Positions 2,047 to 26,945 of a stretch of 41,647 bases of DNA are shown here, piece after piece. The stretch is from a virus, in the IMG/VR virus record IMGVR_UViG_3300036791_000888, positions 1 through 41,647 of that record; one strand, given 5' to 3'. Numbering within the stretch: position 1 is the first letter of the stretch; every line of letters begins with the position of its first letter. Made by a program: the position numbers and the translations under genes. Under the pieces are notes generated by a model, which worked only from the letters and a program-made list of their open reading frames with translations, made no database searches and was not told the origin of the DNA.

Positions 2047-3102
2047 TTAGACAATGGGAATCTGGAGGGTGGCGTAGACGTTGAACCCGCCGACCGGCCA
2101 GGACGCGCCCCCCGAGCGTTGAAGCGCGATGCGGTCCAGCCCGAACCCGCTGGTGCAATACGCGCCGCCCGTCTCCCAGATGGAACCGGGAATGATGAAC
2201 GCGGTATACCCGCCCGCCATCGGACTGGCAGGCGTGAAGAACGCCCAGGCCCCCGCGAAAATCTGCAGCGACGTCGCGACGGCCACGGCGACCGACGAGC
2301 CCTCGATGGCGGCCATCACGGTGAGCGTCCTCCCGCGCACCTCATAGGTGACGCCCGTCACATTGCCCGCCGCAATCGTCCAGGTGGCACCACCGACCGC
2401 CCCATAGTTCGCGGCATTAAATGGCGCGCTGAGCGGGGCCCCTTGACAATGGCTGATCAGGATCCAGCCCGATCCGTTGTGGGCATACGAGGCCCACCCG
2501 CCAGGACCCAACGGGGTGGGAGCCGAGGTCACCGCGTTAAAGAACTGATTGACCGGGAGTGAGGACCCGCTGGCCTGCGCCAGGGTGAGTTTTCGGTTGG
2601 CGGTCCCGGAGGCGTTCCGAATGGTGAGCACATGGCCTATCGCGCCGCCTGAAATGCCCGTCAACGCTAAATCCGCCGCGCCAACCCACTGCCAGACCGT
2701 CGATTTGGTGCGGCCGACGAGCACGTAGTCATTCACGGCCCCCGTCGCGGTGCTGTCAACGATGTAGGTGACGCCGCCCGTATCGACGGTCGGCAGCTGG
2801 GTCAGCGGCGACACGATGTTGTCGCACGTCTTCAGCGTGGCACCGTGCGTGGGTGGCACGGCGGGGGTCTCGAAGACGAGCTTGAAGCCGGTCCCGAAGG
2901 CGGCGTAGGCCAGCCAGCGCCCCGACCCGTCGGCGATGATCGGGTTGGTGTTGGGGGTGCCGAGATTCGGATCGGTGTAGGTCGCTTGCGGCGTCGTCGT
3001 GCCCGCTGCATAGGTCCAGATCAACCCACCCGGAACCGTGACGCCGTTCGCGTCTTCGAGCGTCTCGTAGCCCGAGGGGAGCAGTCCACCCAGAATCGCC
3101 AT
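2047..3102 (-). CDS. Tail fibre-like protein
   Basis: 351 residues. The start is the ATG in a TAATG overlap with the stop of the upstream gene; an upstream extension to 3171 would lie inside that gene and reads like shadow sequence. The N-terminus has a layout common in phage fibre/tailspike attachment regions: GGLIWTYAAGTTTPQATYTD, then NTNPIIADGSGRW and TLKTCDNI. The rest is beta-rich, low in charge and Gly/Ala/Thr-rich, with no enzyme motif seen, and ends in a hydrophobic beta region. Together with its neighbours it probably forms the host-recognition part of the tail. Confidence 0.75.
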   Translation of the reverse strand: MAILGGLLPSGYETLEDANGVTVPGGLIWTYAAGTTTPQATYTDPNLGTPNTNPIIADGSGRWLAYAAFGTGFKLVFETPAVPPTHGATLKTCDNIVSPLTQLPTVDTGGVTYIVDSTATGAVNDYVLVGRTKSTVWQWVGAADLALTGISGGAIGHVLTIRNASGTANRKLTLAQASGSSLPVNQFFNAVTSAPTPLGPGGWASYAHNGSGWILISHCQGAPLSAPFNAANYGAVGGATWTIAAGNVTGVTYEVRGRTLTVMAAIEGSSVAVAVATSLQIFAGAWAFFTPASPMAGGYTAFIIPGSIWETGGAYCTSGFGLDRIALQRSGGASWPVGGFNVYATLQIPIV

Positions 3103-4394
3103 TACTGCGTCTCCCGTCGTTGCGCGAGCGCCCCGAGGCCCGCGCCGCCGCCGAGCAATGGCAAGAGCCACGCCGCGCGCGGGTCCGCGAGCATCGCCTT
3201 GAAGCGCGCATCAAGGCCAGCCATCTCCCCCGCGAGCGGACGTCGCGACGGACCCGGAGCCAGTTCTAGGAGCTTCTGCTGCGCCTCGGGTGACGACGTG
3301 CCGAACAGATCACTGGCGGCTTTTTCTTTCCCGACCATCGCACGAGCCGTCTGCGCTTGCGCACGCAGCTGCTGCGACTCGCGCGCGTAGTCCAGCGTGC
3401 GCATCGACTCCGCGTGGGAATCGCCCACCTGTCGCAGGCGCAGGTAGAGCTGCCGTTCTTCAAGCGGCAACTGTGCGACGGCTTGAAACTGATCCGTCGT
3501 CATGCCGCGAATGACGGGCACAGCGGCACGGGCCTGCGGCGTCGGCAGCGATGGCGGCGGTTCCACGTTGGTCGCCGACGCTGCGGGTGCGGTCACCGGC
3601 GGCACGGTCACGACCGGCGGCGGCGCAGCAGGTGGTGCCACGGGCGTCGGCCCTGGCGCGGGTGTCATCGGTGGCGTTGGTGGCGCGGGTGCCGCGCCCG
3701 CTGCCGGACCTGCACCCGCTTGCGCCGCTTGTGCGGCGGCTCGCTCCGCGCGCCACTCGGCCACGCCTGGGATCTTGTTGACGACGGCACTGGCAATCTT
3801 TTTCGTCAGTTCTTTCGACGCCTGTCCAACTGGTGACCGCATCACACCTTCCGCGCCGACATACGCGCCCGCTGCCCGTCCCACGTTGCGCGGGTCGCTG
3901 GCGAATTGCGCGAACGTGTCCCAAATCTTGTTGCTCGTCTCGACGGGGTCCTGCCCAGCGGCATACGCCAGGGCCGCGCCCATCCCGAGCGCGTTCTTCG
4001 CCTTCTCGACGGTTTCACGGGGGTTCAGGATCGCACCGGCCGCGTAGAGCGGAGCCGCCACCGCGCCCGCAACGAGCCCGGCTGCGCCACCCACCACACC
4101 TTCCCCGTAGCCCTTCGCCCCCTCGACGCCTCGCTCAGCCATCTTGCCGAGCGTGAACTGGTCCGCGATGTGGCCGAGCATCGATTTGTTCTGCTCGGCA
4201 TTCAGCGCCGCGTTGGCGTCATACCCGCGATTCGCAGCCGCGAGCTGCGCGCGCGACGCGGCGGCATCGAATGGCGCGCTCGGCTTTCCACTGGCCGCCG
4301 CGAAAATCTGATCCCATTCCGCCTCGGAAGGTGGCGTGGGCCCGGTCGCGGAGAGCTTGGTGCCGTCTGGTGCGGTCGCGGTGTAGGTCGGCAT
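3102..4394 (-). CDS. Putative internal virion (DNA ejection) protein
   Basis: 430 residues. Residues ~95-130 are a Gly/Ala-rich hydrophobic segment (GAAGLVAGAVAAPLYAAGAIL) able to enter membranes. Residues ~225-285 are a Pro/Ala linker (APAPPTPPMTPAPGPTPVAPP). A helical Gln/Arg-rich part follows (~300-370), and the C-terminus is hydrophobic (WLLPLLGGGAGLGALA). It begins one base after the 562-residue gene's stop and overlaps the fibre gene by one base. In P22-like phages this place is held by the ejection proteins. The assignment rests on position and composition, not on a recognised domain. Confidence 0.65.
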   Translation of the reverse strand: MPTYTATAPDGTKLSATGPTPPSEAEWDQIFAAASGKPSAPFDAAASRAQLAAANRGYDANAALNAEQNKSMLGHIADQFTLGKMAERGVEGAKGYGEGVVGGAAGLVAGAVAAPLYAAGAILNPRETVEKAKNALGMGAALAYAAGQDPVETSNKIWDTFAQFASDPRNVGRAAGAYVGAEGVMRSPVGQASKELTKKIASAVVNKIPGVAEWRAERAAAQAAQAGAGPAAGAAPAPPTPPMTPAPGPTPVAPPAAPPPVVTVPPVTAPAASATNVEPPPSLPTPQARAAVPVIRGMTTDQFQAVAQLPLEERQLYLRLRQVGDSHAESMRTLDYARESQQLRAQAQTARAMVGKEKAASDLFGTSSPEAQQKLLELAPGPSRRPLAGEMAGLDARFKAMLADPRAAWLLPLLGGGAGLGALAQRRETQ

Positions 4395-6083
4395 TTACGG
4401 ATTCCGCGTGACGTTGTATTTGCCCACTTGCATCCCGCCGCCGCCAGGGGCTTGCGCGGCGGGCACCGCATTGGGGCCCTGCCCGTAGACCCCCATCGTG
4501 CCCAACAACGTCTGCTTGCGTGCGCCGAGCACCCCACTCAACTGCTGCATCGTGTCGAGAAAATCCTTCGGCCCGAGCGTGGGATTCACAAGGTCGAGTC
4601 CGAGCTTGGTCTTTAGATCAGAGCCCGTGCCAACGCCGAGCGCGTTGCCGACTTCCTCCCCGAGCAACGTCTGGAGCTGGCGCAGACTCGCGACATGTTT
4701 CCCCCCGACTTGGAAGTTCCCTTCTTGGAGCAAGCGGTTAAACGCCGGAATATCGTTATTCCCCACGCTCGCCGCGAGCGTCGTGATCCGGTCCACCACG
4801 GGCATGAGCGCGTTGATCGCGACGAGCCGATTGGTGACCTGTGGGTTGGTCGCCATCTTGTAACCCGCTTCAAACTGCGCGGGCGAAAACGCCGGGTTCA
4901 GCTCGCGCGCGGCGTCATACATCGCCGCCTTCGCCTCTGCCCCGGCCCCCGAGCGGTTGGGGAACAGCCGGTTAAATTCGCTGAAGGTCAGCGTGCCCGT
5001 CGCCAGATCTTTGGCGACGCCCTGCTGGTGCGCGTTCAGCACGACCGGTGGCGGCGGGGGTTTGGGATGTGTGTTTTCGTAATCCACTCTCGCCGCCGTT
5101 TCGGCCTTCGAGAGCTGCAGCTTGCGTGCGTCGTCAGCGACCTGCTTCGCGTTGCGCGCCGTCTGAATGTCGCCATACGTCAGCGACGACCGGTCGGCCT
5201 TGTCGCCGTAGAGCGACTTCGCGAGCGCGTCCAGCTCAGGATCCGCAAGTGGTTTCTCCGGCGCGGTGAACGTCACCTTCCCGTCCTGCAGCACTGTCGA
5301 GCCCGCAGGCACGACCGTCTGCTTCGGCTGCGCGCTGAGCACCGTGCCGCTGATGCCCCGCTTGATCGTCTCGCCTTCTTTCGTGATGAGCGGCGGCGCG
5401 ACCTCGTCGCCCGCGTCGATGAGGCGTTGACGAGCGGTGTCCCAGTCACTCCCGTCCCCGAGGTCGCGCTGCAGTTGGGCGATACGCTGCGGCGTCAGCC
5501 CCTGCGTGACGCGCGCGGTGCCGATCCGCGCGACAAAATCCGGAAGGTCCGTCGCCTTGTTCGCCGCGTTGGCAATGGCAATCGTCTGCGCGTTGTCGTG
5601 GGCGCGCTTCGTCGTCGCCAGCTTCTCCAGGTCGGCCTGCCCGTCGGCGTGCAGCGCGAGCCACTTCTCCCCGACGCCGGGATACTGCGCGCTGACGAGG
5701 CTCGCGACTTTCGGCGCGTCAATCTCGCCCGTGTCGGGGTTCGTGTTCTGCTGGATCGTGGACGCGAGATACCGCTCGCCCTGTTGCTGCGCCTGCTGCG
5801 CGGCGAGCTGCTGCTGCGCGCCCTGGATCTGCGTGTTCCGCAGCGCGATTTCACTCTGGGCCAGCTGGTTCTGCCGGGTCTGCTCCATCATCTGCGTGGG
5901 CATCGCACCCAGGGTCTGAATCGTCCGACCCCAGAGCGCGGCACGCTGGGCCGCGCTCTGCGCGTTGGCATCGGCAACCGTCATCGCCTCACGCGCCCGA
6001 ATATCCCCGCCGCGCAGGATGATGTCGGCGATGCTGCCCGCGAGCGGCGAGGGCGACGGGGTGTCGTATTGAAACGGGGCCAT
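4395..6083 (-). CDS. Putative internal virion (DNA ejection) protein, Gln/Ala-rich
   Basis: 562 residues, predicted largely helical. Residues ~30-110 are rich in Gln/Ala and probably coiled coil (TQIQGAQQQLAAQQAQQQGE). A Pro run (HPKPPPPPVVLN) lies near residue 345. A mixed C-terminal domain follows, ending in a Gly-rich tail (APGGGGMQVGKYNV). It lies between the 247- and 430-residue virion genes with 1-3 base spacings, so all are probably translated from one late message. No lytic transglycosylase motif is visible. Ejection or channel-forming function is inferred from context. Confidence 0.65.
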   Translation of the reverse strand: MAPFQYDTPSPSPLAGSIADIILRGGDIRAREAMTVADANAQSAAQRAALWGRTIQTLGAMPTQMMEQTRQNQLAQSEIALRNTQIQGAQQQLAAQQAQQQGERYLASTIQQNTNPDTGEIDAPKVASLVSAQYPGVGEKWLALHADGQADLEKLATTKRAHDNAQTIAIANAANKATDLPDFVARIGTARVTQGLTPQRIAQLQRDLGDGSDWDTARQRLIDAGDEVAPPLITKEGETIKRGISGTVLSAQPKQTVVPAGSTVLQDGKVTFTAPEKPLADPELDALAKSLYGDKADRSSLTYGDIQTARNAKQVADDARKLQLSKAETAARVDYENTHPKPPPPPVVLNAHQQGVAKDLATGTLTFSEFNRLFPNRSGAGAEAKAAMYDAARELNPAFSPAQFEAGYKMATNPQVTNRLVAINALMPVVDRITTLAASVGNNDIPAFNRLLQEGNFQVGGKHVASLRQLQTLLGEEVGNALGVGTGSDLKTKLGLDLVNPTLGPKDFLDTMQQLSGVLGARKQTLLGTMGVYGQGPNAVPAAQAPGGGGMQVGKYNVTRNP

Positions 6084-6086
6084 GGG

Positions 6087-6830
6087 CTACAGCGTCGTGA
6101 TGCTCTTGCTCTCGTTGATCCGATCCAGCCACGCTTGGTAGTTCGTCTGGTAGGCTTGCAGCCCGCTCTGATACGCGTTTTTGTAGGGATCGAGATACTG
6201 CGTCGTGTAGTTCGTGTTGTAGTTACTCAGGGCGCGGTCGTAGACGTTCCCGTATTGGGTCGTCGCGAGCGCTTGGTTCCACTTCGCAATGTCCTTGAGC
6301 GTCCCACCCGTGTTGAGCACGCCACGCGCGGCCGCGCTGCGCTCCAGCCCTTGTTGTCCTTCGGCCTGCGCAAACTGGAAGCCCGGATCGTTGGCCGCCT
6401 CGTCAAAAGACGGGGCCGCAAACGCGGGCGGCGGCGTAAAGCCCGGCGGCACGAACGGCCCCCCCGGATACGCCGCGATGAGCCCGCCCCCGCCCCCGCC
6501 ACCAGTTGGCGGGGGAGTCGGCGGCGGAGTCGGCGGTGGCGTGACCGGATTGACGCCGGGGCCACTCGCCTCTGGGTAAGTATTCGTGTTGGGCGGGGGT
6601 TCCACGACCGGCCCGCCGATCTTGTCGTTGGTGGACGTGCCTTGTTGCTGCTGAAACGCCAGCGCGCCGTCGTCGTGCCCATAGACCACGCCGTTGATCA
6701 TGATGTTGCCGGTCCCGTTGTCGTTGGCGGGATACGGCAACCACTGTCCCGTCGCGGGGTCTTGGATCTGCGGCCCCGGATCGTTGGGGCTGACGTCGCT
6801 ACCGGGTAGGATGACGGCGTTTGGGTTCAT
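6087..6830 (-). CDS. Podovirus-type virion protein
   Basis: 247 residues. A Pro/Gly linker with a PPPTPPPTPPP run followed by GGGGGGG occupies residues ~95-125. The C-terminal third carries a pattern I recognise from many podovirus structural proteins: DPGFQFAQAEGQQGLERSAA, ARGVLNTGGTLKDIAKWNQ, then Tyr/Asn-rich YGNVYDRALSNYNTNY. Members of that family are small virion proteins next to the ejection proteins; their exact role is not settled. It follows the 518-residue gene by four bases. Confidence 0.7.
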   Translation of the reverse strand: MNPNAVILPGSDVSPNDPGPQIQDPATGQWLPYPANDNGTGNIMINGVVYGHDDGALAFQQQQGTSTNDKIGGPVVEPPPNTNTYPEASGPGVNPVTPPPTPPPTPPPTGGGGGGGLIAAYPGGPFVPPGFTPPPAFAAPSFDEAANDPGFQFAQAEGQQGLERSAAARGVLNTGGTLKDIAKWNQALATTQYGNVYDRALSNYNTNYTTQYLDPYKNAYQSGLQAYQTNYQAWLDRINESKSITTL

Positions 6831-6834
6831 TACC

Positions 6835-8391
6835 TCAGCTCCACCAAAATTGATTGGTCAGGTTCGAGAGGCTCCCGAGCGAGCCCGGCGGCGGCGCGGC
6901 GGCCTGCGGCGTCTGCACGTTCGCGACGGGCTCCGGCGGCACCCCGCCCGCCAACTCCTTCGCGATGCGGCCGTTCGGGCCGAACCAATACGCGGTGTTG
7001 TCGGGCGTCAGGCCGCCGGTTTGATTGATGCGCTGCGCAAAATACTGAATATCCGTCGGCCCGCTGCCAGGACCTGATGGCGTGTGCCCGAGCGCCGCGT
7101 AGTTTTTCGCGAGCGCACTGAGCACCGGGTCACTGGCGTATTGCGGATCGACCGCCGCCGAGGCGTTCGGCGTATACGGGTTCCCGCCGCCGGGGGTGGC
7201 GTGCTGGACGTTGGTGATCCAGTCGTTGCCTGCGGAGGCTTGCGCGCTATAGAACGCGGCTTCTGCCGCCGTCGGCGCGCGGCCGACGATGGTGCCAAAC
7301 ACCGAGGGATCCCACGCGGCGCTGGGGGTGCCTGTCGGCGTGCTCGTGGGCGGCGGCGTCGTCGTGTTCGTCGTCGGGTTGTAATCGGTGTAGCGCGGAT
7401 CGACGCCGGGCGCGTAGCTCGGGATGTCGCGCGCCGAGAGCCCGAGCGCTTGCCCGAGGCTGCTCACCCGCCCTTCGCGCGCGGCCCACTGGTCGTAGTT
7501 CGCGCGCCGCGTCACCTCGGAATTTTGAAAGGTGTTTTCGGCCTGCTGCCGCGCATATTCTTCCGCGCGCTTGTTCGCCGCGTCCTGCAGGTCGGCGGCA
7601 TACTTCGCGGCGGCCGCGATGGACGCTTGGTTGCTTGTGGATGCATCGGTCTGCAGCTTGGTGCTGAGCAAGTTGCCAAACAGATTCGTGCCGAGGCCGA
7701 CGAGGCCCGTGCCACCGCCCCCGCCCAGGAGTGTGGTCGCGAGGCTTGTGCCTCCTGACCCGCCGCCGATGATCGCGCCAGTGCCCGTATCGATGCCGTT
7801 GACGACATTGCCCGCGACCATCCCGCCAAGGTCGGGTGCCGCCGCCGCCCCGCCAGCCGCCGCGCCACCGGCCGCCCCAGCAGCACCGAGGGCAGCAGCG
7901 GTGCCGCTGATGTCTGCGCCCACCCCGCCCGCGATGGGTCCAATAAACCCCGCGCCGATAGGTGTGGACGCGAGCAGGCCGCCTTCAGTCGCCGCTGCGC
8001 CACCAGCGGCCGCGCCACTGCCTGCACCGAACGCGCCCGCCAGCGGCCCGATGCCCGCCGCGCCGAAACCGGTCAGCGCGAGCGCGCCAATGCCCGCCCC
8101 GATTAGGATGTTGCGCGCGAGGTGCCCACCTTGTTCGGCGACTTGTCCGTTCGGATTGACCTCGAAGCGGTCAGAGATGCCAATGCCATGCTGTCGGGCG
8201 AGATCCCGCAGTTCCTGCTGCTGCGCGCCGGTCAGCGTGACGTCGCCGTAAGCGTCCCCGCGCGGCGCGAGCTGATTTTGCGCGAGCCAGTGCTGATACC
8301 ACGGCTGGTTCCGGATGAACCATGTGGCTTGCTGCGCGGTGACGCGATCACCGATTCCAGCGGGCAGGGTGGCGTTCGGATCACCGGGCAT
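6835..8391 (-). CDS. Putative internal virion protein, Gly/Ala-rich
   Basis: 518 residues. N-terminal ~90 residues are soluble (QQATWFIRNQPWYQHWLAQN). A long Gly/Ala-rich, weakly hydrophobic stretch follows (~95-260), then a helical segment (YAADLQDAANKRAEEYARQQ). The C-terminal half contains a Thr/Pro linker (NTTTPPPTSTPTGTP) and small polar domains. Such membrane-prone Gly/Ala stretches are common in proteins ejected with the genome. Lies between the 168- and 247-residue virion genes. I see no enzyme motif. Confidence 0.65.
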   Translation of the reverse strand: MPGDPNATLPAGIGDRVTAQQATWFIRNQPWYQHWLAQNQLAPRGDAYGDVTLTGAQQQELRDLARQHGIGISDRFEVNPNGQVAEQGGHLARNILIGAGIGALALTGFGAAGIGPLAGAFGAGSGAAAGGAAATEGGLLASTPIGAGFIGPIAGGVGADISGTAAALGAAGAAGGAAAGGAAAAPDLGGMVAGNVVNGIDTGTGAIIGGGSGGTSLATTLLGGGGGTGLVGLGTNLFGNLLSTKLQTDASTSNQASIAAAAKYAADLQDAANKRAEEYARQQAENTFQNSEVTRRANYDQWAAREGRVSSLGQALGLSARDIPSYAPGVDPRYTDYNPTTNTTTPPPTSTPTGTPSAAWDPSVFGTIVGRAPTAAEAAFYSAQASAGNDWITNVQHATPGGGNPYTPNASAAVDPQYASDPVLSALAKNYAALGHTPSGPGSGPTDIQYFAQRINQTGGLTPDNTAYWFGPNGRIAKELAGGVPPEPVANVQTPQAAAPPPGSLGSLSNLTNQFWWS

Positions 8392-25415: not shown

Positions 25416-25444
25416 TTGACAGTACCTAAGTGGTTAGGTATTAT
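25416..25444 (+). promoter_or_regulatory. Sigma70-type promoter with palindromic operator
   Basis: TTGACA (25416-25421), exactly 17 bases, then TATTAT (25439-25444): the best promoter in the window. The spacer holds the inverted repeat ACCTAA-gtgg-TTAGGT (25424-25439), which would let a dimeric repressor block RNA polymerase. AGTGGTTAGGT within it recurs at 15608-15618. It drives the accessory operon beginning at 25487. Confidence 0.75.
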
Positions 25445-25486: not shown

Positions 25487-25786
25487 ATGAGATACGAAGT
25501 CACGATGGAACGCGGCGACGGTTGGGACAGCACCGGCAAACTGCGCCGCACGACACTGGTCCGCGTGCCTAATGTGGGCACCCTTGCCGAAGCCGAATAT
25601 TTCTACCGGTTGTTCTACCTGCGGTTCACTGGCGACTGCCGCTCGCAGGCGACGTCTGGGAACTGGCCCCTGGAAGATGGCCGACGCATCGAACGCAGTT
25701 TTACGGCCGACGTGCAGCCGGTCGATGGCTGGCCGAACGCTACGTCGCGCACGTCGGTCACCGTTTCCATTATCGAGGGGCAATGA
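25487..25786 (+). CDS. Accessory protein, unknown function
   Basis: 99 residues, first gene of the operon controlled by the 25416 promoter. The sequence alternates charged strands (MRYEVTMERGDGWDSTGKLR, TTLVRVPNVGTLAEAEYFYR) and ends with a likely beta strand (TSRTSVTVSIIEG), suggesting a small alpha/beta domain. The ATG at 25487 follows GGGAGTCAGCAC, a usable ribosome-binding site. The stop overlaps the next ATG (ATGA). No family recognised. Confidence 0.7.
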   Translation: MRYEVTMERGDGWDSTGKLRRTTLVRVPNVGTLAEAEYFYRLFYLRFTGDCRSQATSGNWPLEDGRRIERSFTADVQPVDGWPNATSRTSVTVSIIEGQ

Positions 25787-25875
25787 ACACCCCGAACGTC
25801 ACCCGCATCGACGCCGACACCTTCGTCGTGTTCACCAAATCTGGGCCCGTCGTCATCCGACGCACCGCCCGCTAG
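25783..25875 (+). CDS. 30-residue micro-gene
   Basis: ATG overlaps the previous stop (ATGA at 25783-25786), and TAG at 25873-25875 is followed by GGAG and the next gene's ATG at 25885. The product, MNTPNVTRIDADTFVVFTKS plus GPVVIRRTAR, reads like a small beta hairpin ending basic. Third codon positions are almost all C or G, as in the neighbouring genes, which supports translation. Confidence 0.6.
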   Translation: MNTPNVTRIDADTFVVFTKSGPVVIRRTAR

Positions 25876-25884
25876 GAGCCACCC

Positions 25885-26439
25885 ATGTCTGCTTACCAAG
25901 TGCATTCCGACACCATCGACCTGCTGGTCGCCGCCGCCGACCGGTGGCGTCTCCAGTTCATCACCGAGGACGGCCAGCGCCTCCACGTCTGCAGCCACCG
26001 CACCGAAGCGGGCCAGCTGCTCACCGACGAAAACGCGCGCAGCGTGTCGGCGCGCTACAACACGACCGACCCGGTCGAGCGCTACACCTACACGTTTCTC
26101 GACCTGGACCGCGCCGCCGCCGGACTGCCGATCCCCGTGCTCGTGCTCGGCTCGGTGCGCTGCCTGCGGTATCAGTCCTGCGAGACCGAGGCGTATCCGA
26201 CGTCGCCTGCGGCGCAGCTGCTCGACGCGATTGAGGCTGAGGCCTGCCGCCAGCTGATCAACGTGCACGACGCGCCCTGGGGCTTCACGCGCAGCTGGAT
26301 GGACGACAAGCGCGCCACCGTGAAGGCCGCTGTCGCTGCACAGACCAGAGCGGCGCTGCTCGCGCGCAACGACGAGCTGACCACCCGCTGCCGTCCCTCC
26401 GACTGGCAGAAGGGCTTCAACAACCGTCACGAGGACTGA
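25885..26439 (+). CDS. Conserved-looking phage protein, unknown function
   Basis: 184 residues. The region LGSVRCLRYQSCETEAYPTS, followed by AAQLLDAIEAEACRQLIN and HDAPWGFTRSWM, resembles a widely distributed phage/bacterial hypothetical protein (typical words: YQSCE, and a later DAPWG near the C-terminus). The N-terminus (DTIDLLVAAADRW) also fits that group. Function is not known to me. Ribosome-binding site GGAG is seven bases before the ATG. Middle gene of the accessory operon. Confidence 0.7.
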   Translation: MSAYQVHSDTIDLLVAAADRWRLQFITEDGQRLHVCSHRTEAGQLLTDENARSVSARYNTTDPVERYTYTFLDLDRAAAGLPIPVLVLGSVRCLRYQSCETEAYPTSPAAQLLDAIEAEACRQLINVHDAPWGFTRSWMDDKRATVKAAVAAQTRAALLARNDELTTRCRPSDWQKGFNNRHED

Positions 26440-26449
26440 GAGGTTCGCC

Positions 26450-26644
26450 ATGTTTCAACTGCGCGACGACGGCACGCTCGACACGGTGGTCGCCTGCACC
26501 GACTGCGGCCACCAGGAACGCTTCACCTTTCAGCCAGACAGCTACGACGACGAAACCTACGACGACTTCGTCGCGTGGGCGCTGGACGAGGCGGCCGCGT
26601 GCCACGACTGTCTCAACCAGGAAGCGGCCCACGACCGCCTGTAG
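26450..26644 (+). CDS. Small acidic zinc-ribbon-like protein
   Basis: 64 residues. VVACTDCGHQERFTF and AAACHDCLNQEAA give two CxxC pairs separated by ~37 residues with an acidic middle (DSYDDETYDDFVAWALDEA). A metal-binding fold is likely. The last G of its TAG stop is also the first base of the ribozyme stem that follows, so this gene and the ribozyme share a boundary. Function unknown; possibly a regulator or inhibitor of a host protein. Confidence 0.7.
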   Translation: MFQLRDDGTLDTVVACTDCGHQERFTFQPDSYDDETYDDFVAWALDEAAACHDCLNQEAAHDRL

Positions 26645-26693
26645 GCCGAAACCCCGCGAGGGGTCCGCACGTGACGCGTGCGCTGATGAGGCC
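26644..26693 (+). ncRNA. Type II hammerhead ribozyme
   Basis: All core parts are present in type II order. Stem II 5' strand GGCC (26644-26647); GAAA (26648-26651). Stem III CCCC (26652-26655), loop GCGA, GGGG (26660-26663), closed by A26651-U26664. Cleavage-site base C26665. Stem I CGCACG (26666-26671), loop TGACG, CGTGCG (26677-26682). CUGAUGA (26683-26689). Stem II 3' strand GGCC (26690-26693). G26648 and G26688 match catalytic G12 and G8. Cleavage is expected between 26665 and 26666, leaving a 2',3'-cyclic phosphate on the upstream RNA and a 5'-OH on the downstream RNA. It would separate the 64-residue gene's message from that of the 55-residue protein. Activity is inferred from sequence. 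Confidence 0.9.
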
Positions 26694-26717
26694 AGTTCGC
26701 CTGTGGAGTGTGTCGCA

Positions 26718-26885
26718 ATGAAAAAGTTTCTCGTCGGTCTGACGTTCGCGTGGTTCGTGGTGAATTATTCGGGCCAGCGGCTCACCGGGCCGTTTCAGTT
26801 TGTGGGCGAGTGCAACGAGGCGGCCGCCGAGATGGCGCGGCACCGCAGCGATGTCCTCTCCGTCTGCCGCTGGTATCCGTCCTAA
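26718..26885 (+). CDS. Small membrane/secreted-like protein
   Basis: 55 residues from ATG 26718 (MKKFLVGLTFAWFVVNYSG); an upstream ATG at 26703 adds five residues that fit less well. The basic MKK start plus a hydrophobic stretch of ~15 residues looks like a signal peptide or membrane anchor. The remainder is soluble with two Cys (FVGECNEAAAEM, SVCRWYPS). It lies 52 bases after the predicted ribozyme cleavage site and is the last gene before the terminator. Function unknown; an envelope-located accessory role such as superinfection exclusion is conceivable. Confidence 0.65.
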   Translation: MKKFLVGLTFAWFVVNYSGQRLTGPFQFVGECNEAAAEMARHRSDVLSVCRWYPS

Positions 26886-26912
26886 CCCCACCCGTTCCCT
26901 TCAAGCCCTCCA

Positions 26913-26945
26913 GGCCCGGCCGATGCCGGGCCTGTCGTTTATTTG
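26913..26945 (+). terminator. Rho-independent terminator of the accessory operon
   Basis: Perfect 9-bp stem AGGCCCGGC / GCCGGGCCT (26913-26921 and 26926-26934) with loop CGAT, followed by GTCGTTTATTT. It closes the plus-strand operon 25487-26885. The T-rich tail lies on the plus-strand side only. Its end overlaps the last seven bases of the convergent early operon. Confidence 0.85.

Follow-up and report, generated by a model that had tools for sequence, protein, structure and literature searches.

A predicted type II hammerhead ribozyme between two genes of a phage operon

Type II hammerhead ribozymes, represented in Rfam by the family RF02276, are found in bacteria and phages, lie between genes and are often clustered around individual genes (PMC3088659). 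In 2011 Perreault et al. described hammerheads between phage genes and proposed that they process long phage RNAs; 14 of 18 consensus hammerheads cleaved in vitro and 4 of 18 candidates were inactive (PMC3088659). In prophages, clustered hammerheads such as the ardA triple of Agrobacterium tumefaciens and those of Azorhizobium and Clostridium scindens sit between small phage-operon genes, with cleavage seen in vitro and, for the A. tumefaciens triple, also upon transcription in E. coli (PMC3088659). The published type II consensus includes, as a majority feature, a pseudoknot between loop I and the 3' tail (PMC3088659). A crystal study showed that the final A of the stem II loop forms a conserved Hoogsteen pair with a U adjoining position 1.6 (PMC2553840), and an AU Hoogsteen contact in a hammerhead is described in PMC9217987 as well.

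The locus examined here, known from sequence, lies in a 41,647-base IMG/VR virus contig (IMGVR_UViG_3300036791_000888), analyzed over its full length and called the window below. The contig carries portal, terminase, head, Erf-like, exonuclease and integrase genes, and because of such genes, integrase included, the phage is probably temperate. An earlier note had placed an intercistronic type II hammerhead at positions 26644 to 26693, and direct reading of the + strand confirms an intact type II core with its stems. The invariant core CUGANGA...GAAA...UH is present in the correct order, surrounded by three helices of 4, 5 and 6 to 7 bp; stems I and III are closed by loops and stem II is open, as in type II. 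The note's coordinates for the cut and for the core base G26688 also proved correct. With RF02276 the ribozyme shares the core, the permutation, C17, the intergenic position and the bacterial or phage setting (PMC3088659), and since phage hammerheads between genes have been reported since 2011 it belongs to an already known kind. Read 5' to 3', its elements are as follows.

26643, + strand: A preceding stem II, the proposed U1.7 partner in an AU trans-Hoogsteen contact, and also the A of a UAG stop codon (conservation among relatives)
26644..26693, + strand: type II hammerhead ribozyme (descriptor, RF02276 and family model R1)
26644-26647 with 26690-26693, + strand: stem II, GGCC/GGCC, 4 bp, open
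26648-26650, + strand: G12-A13-A14, GAA
26651..26664, + strand: stem III hairpin ACCCC-GCGA-GGGGU, 5 bp, closed by A-U, with a GNRA loop (sequence, fold)
26665..26666, + strand: predicted cleavage site between C17 (26665, 2',3'-cyclic phosphate) and C1.1 (26666, 5'-OH) (homology to the hammerhead core)
26666..26682, + strand: stem I hairpin CGCACG-UGACG-CGUGCG, 6 bp, or 7 bp counting U-G, with G1.6 at 26671 and U1.7 at 26672 (conservation among relatives)
26683..26689, + strand: catalytic core strand CUGAUGA, with G8 at 26688 (conservation among relatives)

A descriptor combining the core and three stems matches this one site on either strand of the window. In Markov sequence with the window's dinucleotide make-up, only 2 lenient matches arose in 64.8 million strand-bases and none had stems as long, which bears out the claim that a chance origin is very unlikely. 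The site did not pass the Rfam type II search that had been suggested as a check: RF02276 is the best Rfam family (cmscan), at 22.7 bits (E 0.036 for 601 bases and 2.5 for the window), while the gathering score of Hammerhead_II is 37, so that a search of the whole window at the gathering cut-off returned nothing. Scored instead with a covariance model (R1) of 48 copies from other phage contigs, with the window excluded, the site reaches 68.6 bits (E 3.5e-19). Three copies from the 20 loci that hold the class represented by R1, whose stem II is of the GGCC type, attain the Rfam cut-off, and in ten of these loci most copies fall at 23 to 37 bits. The window's position below the cut-off is thus a limit of the RF02276 model for this class, most of whose copies also lie below it. 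The gathering score loses most GGCC-type copies at L004, L017, L047, L090, L216 and other loci. We file the window ribozyme as a type II hammerhead by its architecture and not as a gathering-level member of RF02276.

Because of the low Rfam score, relatives were sought with the DNA pattern GGCCGAAAC-N-GTC-N-CTGATGAGGCC, which does not require pairing in stems I and III. It matched at least 119 stretches in IMG/VR, but only 21 in bacterial and archaeal genomes totalling 257 billion bases. Stems III and I both pair in 104 of 111 distinct matches among the viral loci examined, against 103 of 5200 shuffled loops. The model alignment shows two-sided changes in 12 of 16 pairs, and 99.2% of its cells pair against 29.6-39.7% when slid; its rows had been selected for pairing, and the pattern-based comparison with shuffles is the fair test. 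Among 122 unique relatives, 114 have CUGAUGA as the core, 121 have C at H17 and 121 have A immediately before stem II. Stem I is 17 nt long in 109, of which 101 have G1.6 and 108 U1.7; stem II is usually GGCC/GGCC. The window has the same anatomy, namely A(-1), a 4-bp stem II, a 17-nt stem I with G1.6-U1.7, A15.1-U16.1 and C17. The type II hammerheads captured by R1 form a class that is widespread in phages.

Since A(-1) and U1.7 occupy the places of the known contact, we infer that the class uses an AU trans-Hoogsteen contact, formed in the window RNA by A26643 and U26672. This pair, and not a Watson-Crick pseudoknot as in the published type II consensus (PMC3088659), would hold stems I and II side by side. 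The window departs from that consensus in its 4-bp GGCC stem II and its A(-1)/U1.7 signature. By eye, no 4-bp match is seen between loop I (UGACG) and the bases directly after stem II. As in the sTRSV and Schistosoma hammerheads (PMC2553840), the stem II strand leading into GAA has an A at its 5' edge and a U adjoins position 1.6; those ribozymes are of types III and I, whereas here stem II is open, with the A outside it and belonging to a stop codon. In all 68 copies whose stop codon does not include this base it is nevertheless A, which argues that A(-1) is kept for the ribozyme. UGUCG at 26711-26715, past the ribosome-binding site and just ahead of the AUG of the downstream 55-aa ORF, could pair (with G-U) with the stem I loop UGACG; the match is of five bases and possibly due to chance.

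The ribozyme precedes the last of four ORFs framed by a promoter match and a terminator-like hairpin.

25416..25444, + strand: sigma-70-like promoter match TTGACA-17-TATTAT, which could start a short operon (consensus match only, 11 of 12 bases)
25487..25786, + strand: 99-aa ORF, possible first gene of the transcript (ORF list; no Pfam match)
25885..26439, + strand: 184-aa ORF, conserved in the nearest relative, L124 (73% DNA identity over 25874-26311)
26450..26644, + strand: 64-aa ORF with CxxC...CxxC, whose UAG stop shares A26643 and G26644 with the ribozyme (GC3 0.88)
26705..26708, + strand: Shine-Dalgarno-like GGAG, 9 nt before the AUG at 26718 (sequence)
26718..26885, + strand: 55-aa ORF with a short N-terminal hydrophobic stretch, the last gene before the terminator (GC3 0.82)
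26911..26944, + strand: intrinsic-terminator-like hairpin of 10 bp (26911-26934) with a U-rich tail (sequence match; a similar hairpin and T-run follow the replaced gene in L124)

The terminator call is weak alone, as 4 such sites were found in the window against 3.9 in shuffles. The GC3 values support the 64-aa and 55-aa ORFs as genes, and the ribozyme lies between them as the earlier note described, beginning on G26644, the last base of the UAG stop. The protein descriptions given there fared less well. The 64-aa product, called a zinc ribbon, has the CxxC...CxxC motif and only sub-threshold matches to zinc fingers, and for the 55-aa product, called a membrane protein, the short hydrophobic stretch is all that speaks for that description. 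Relatives of the 64-aa and 55-aa proteins were found in neither viral contigs nor phage records; the 184-aa protein has no match in PHROG or Pfam and no relatives in viral contigs, and no named phage gave a whole-phage DNA match. In L124, whose terminase is 91% identical, the 184-aa gene is kept, a different gene followed by a terminator-like hairpin stands in place of the 64-aa/55-aa pair, and its 42.9-kb contig has no hammerhead match. The pair and the ribozyme are thus an accessory insertion or replacement, in line with the note's accessory operon. The sampled DNA of 80 terminase-related loci held no hammerhead copy above noise, so this phage group does not need the element.

Placement relative to genes was examined in the 118 copies preceded by an open frame of 40 codons or more; the frame-picking rule is mechanical, so that single values may be wrong although the overall pattern is strong. 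The stop codon ends 0 to 10 nt before stem II in 94 of the 118, where about 15 would be expected for evenly spread stops. In 50 copies, the window among them, it supplies the contact A, and in 33 a UAG shares its A and G with the ribozyme. No upstream frame reading into the ribozyme was found in these copies, in a search to +7 nt past its first base. Downstream, a start codon with a ribosome-binding site occurs within 60 nt in 100 of 117 copies, usually at 10-40 nt. The window has the same arrangement, with the stop at 0 nt and the ATG 24 nt downstream.

The window ribozyme is a single copy, whereas related contigs of its class carry up to 11 copies in 5 kb (L004; IMGVR_UViG_3300038412_000035, 2572-7561) or arrays of 8 and 7. 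Most array genes lie between two hammerheads, several of them with 0 to 3 nt between a stop codon and the ribozyme after it and 11 to 19 nt between that ribozyme and the next ATG. Several of the small genes of L004 are each enclosed by two ribozymes, and the operon would therefore be diced into single-gene mRNAs. One array is common to the bacterial genome of Singulisphaera sp. GP187 (L220; at least six copies) and the viral record IMGVR_UViG_2695420965_000002 (L039/L070; seven); as two ribozymes and their flanks are letter-for-letter identical with the viral record, the bacterial array is apparently that of a prophage.

Some relatives carry a further element. Of 102 flank clusters, 20 have ATCAG, the reverse complement of the invariant core bases CUGAU, downstream of stem II, where shuffling predicts 0.9. 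ATCAG stands (often as CATCAG or CTTATCAG) 0-12 nt past stem II in L005, L008, L011, L016, L022, L026, L035, L041, L068, L096 and others. The hairpin that it forms, of 5-9 bp, excludes the ribozyme core, and with 24 nt of downstream flank the median modelled hammerhead share is 0.007 in copies with ATCAG against 0.28 in the others. The hairpin may act as an off-switch or in product release. Such a hairpin was rejected as a feature of all copies, those lacking ATCAG having a mean z of about 0 at 18 and 24 nt. It was likewise rejected for the window, which has no ATCAG and whose best local hairpin, AGGC/GCCU, does not stand out from shuffles (z 0.37).

Folded alone, a 61-nt RNA adopts the hammerhead at -25.1 kcal/mol, with a z of only -1.2 because GC-rich shuffles fold well too. 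When 200 nt of context is folded, a structure other than the hammerhead has the lowest energy, and the modelled hammerhead share drops to a few per cent or less once both flanks are included, in energy models of the RNA with its flanks. This counts against cleavage of the operon message, although a low share with flanks is typical of the class, in which the window stands at rank 0.43.

From the sequence, its structure, the conservation of the class and the placement between a stop and a start codon, we consider it likely that a cis-acting, single-turnover type II hammerhead cuts the nascent mRNA of the phage operon between two genes, and so splits the message. Co-transcriptional cleavage at 26665/26666 would part the mRNA of the 64-aa gene from that of the 55-aa gene. 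The upstream product would end in the GNRA-capped stem III hairpin and C26665 with its 2',3'-cyclic phosphate. The downstream product, about 280 nt long, would begin with a 5'-OH and the stem I hairpin; the 55-aa gene would follow behind a 52-nt leader that has a ribosome-binding site of its own. RNA with a 5' hydroxyl is poorly attacked by decay pathways that depend on a 5' monophosphate, and exonucleases are hindered by end hairpins and cyclic phosphates. The likely purpose would be to turn a polycistronic message into pieces that decay and are translated independently, each new end carrying a hairpin. We infer such an effect on mRNA fate in the cell, a separation with protected ends. The interpretation offered in the earlier note is thus supported, with cleavage itself set apart as a prediction.

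Cleavage could also be regulated. A ribosome halted at the UAG would cover A26643 and stem II as well as part of stem III; the ribozyme would then fold only once the ribosome had left, and cleavage would report translation of the upstream gene. The 33 of 118 copies in which UAG lends its A and G, and the want of upstream frames past the first base of the ribozyme, are in keeping with this idea, as is the ATCAG able to pair with the core in about one fifth of relatives, the window not being one of them. Tight packing of phage genes accounts for the same geometry, however, since a ribozyme must lie outside the gene if ribosomes reading through are not to unfold it, and no alternative hairpin in the window beats shuffles; we regard regulation of this kind as unlikely here.

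An active ribozyme that arrived with the 64-aa/55-aa cassette and is tolerated or selfish, with no useful role, would suit an isolated copy that is absent from the phage's relatives and travels with genes lacking detectable relatives. We think this improbable, as the class-wide placement between stop and start and the arrays in unrelated phages suggest selection on cleavage between genes. That the hairpins are hammerhead-like by chance, or inactive, might be argued from the score under the Rfam cut-off and from the four inactive candidates among the 18 published (PMC3088659); given the low chance rate, the independent family score and the conserved tertiary-contact bases, this seems very improbable. 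Cleavage that splits the operon message remains our preferred reading.

For the class as a whole, one may speculate, with considerable doubt, about a distinct phage group of type II hammerheads built on stop codons, UAG giving the tertiary-contact A and the first base of stem II. They would part phage mRNAs gene by gene, with the terminating ribosome gating their folding, and in about one fifth of them ATCAG further downstream would form a hairpin with the spent core that blocks or switches the ribozyme. The class offers a uniform, testable geometry of stop codon, ribozyme and start codon, here within a short operon of 1.5 kb for which a promoter and a terminator are predicted. On its own the locus confirms a known kind of ribozyme; of greater interest is the class that standard annotation misses, since routine annotation at the Rfam gathering cut-off overlooks most of its copies in the loci sampled.
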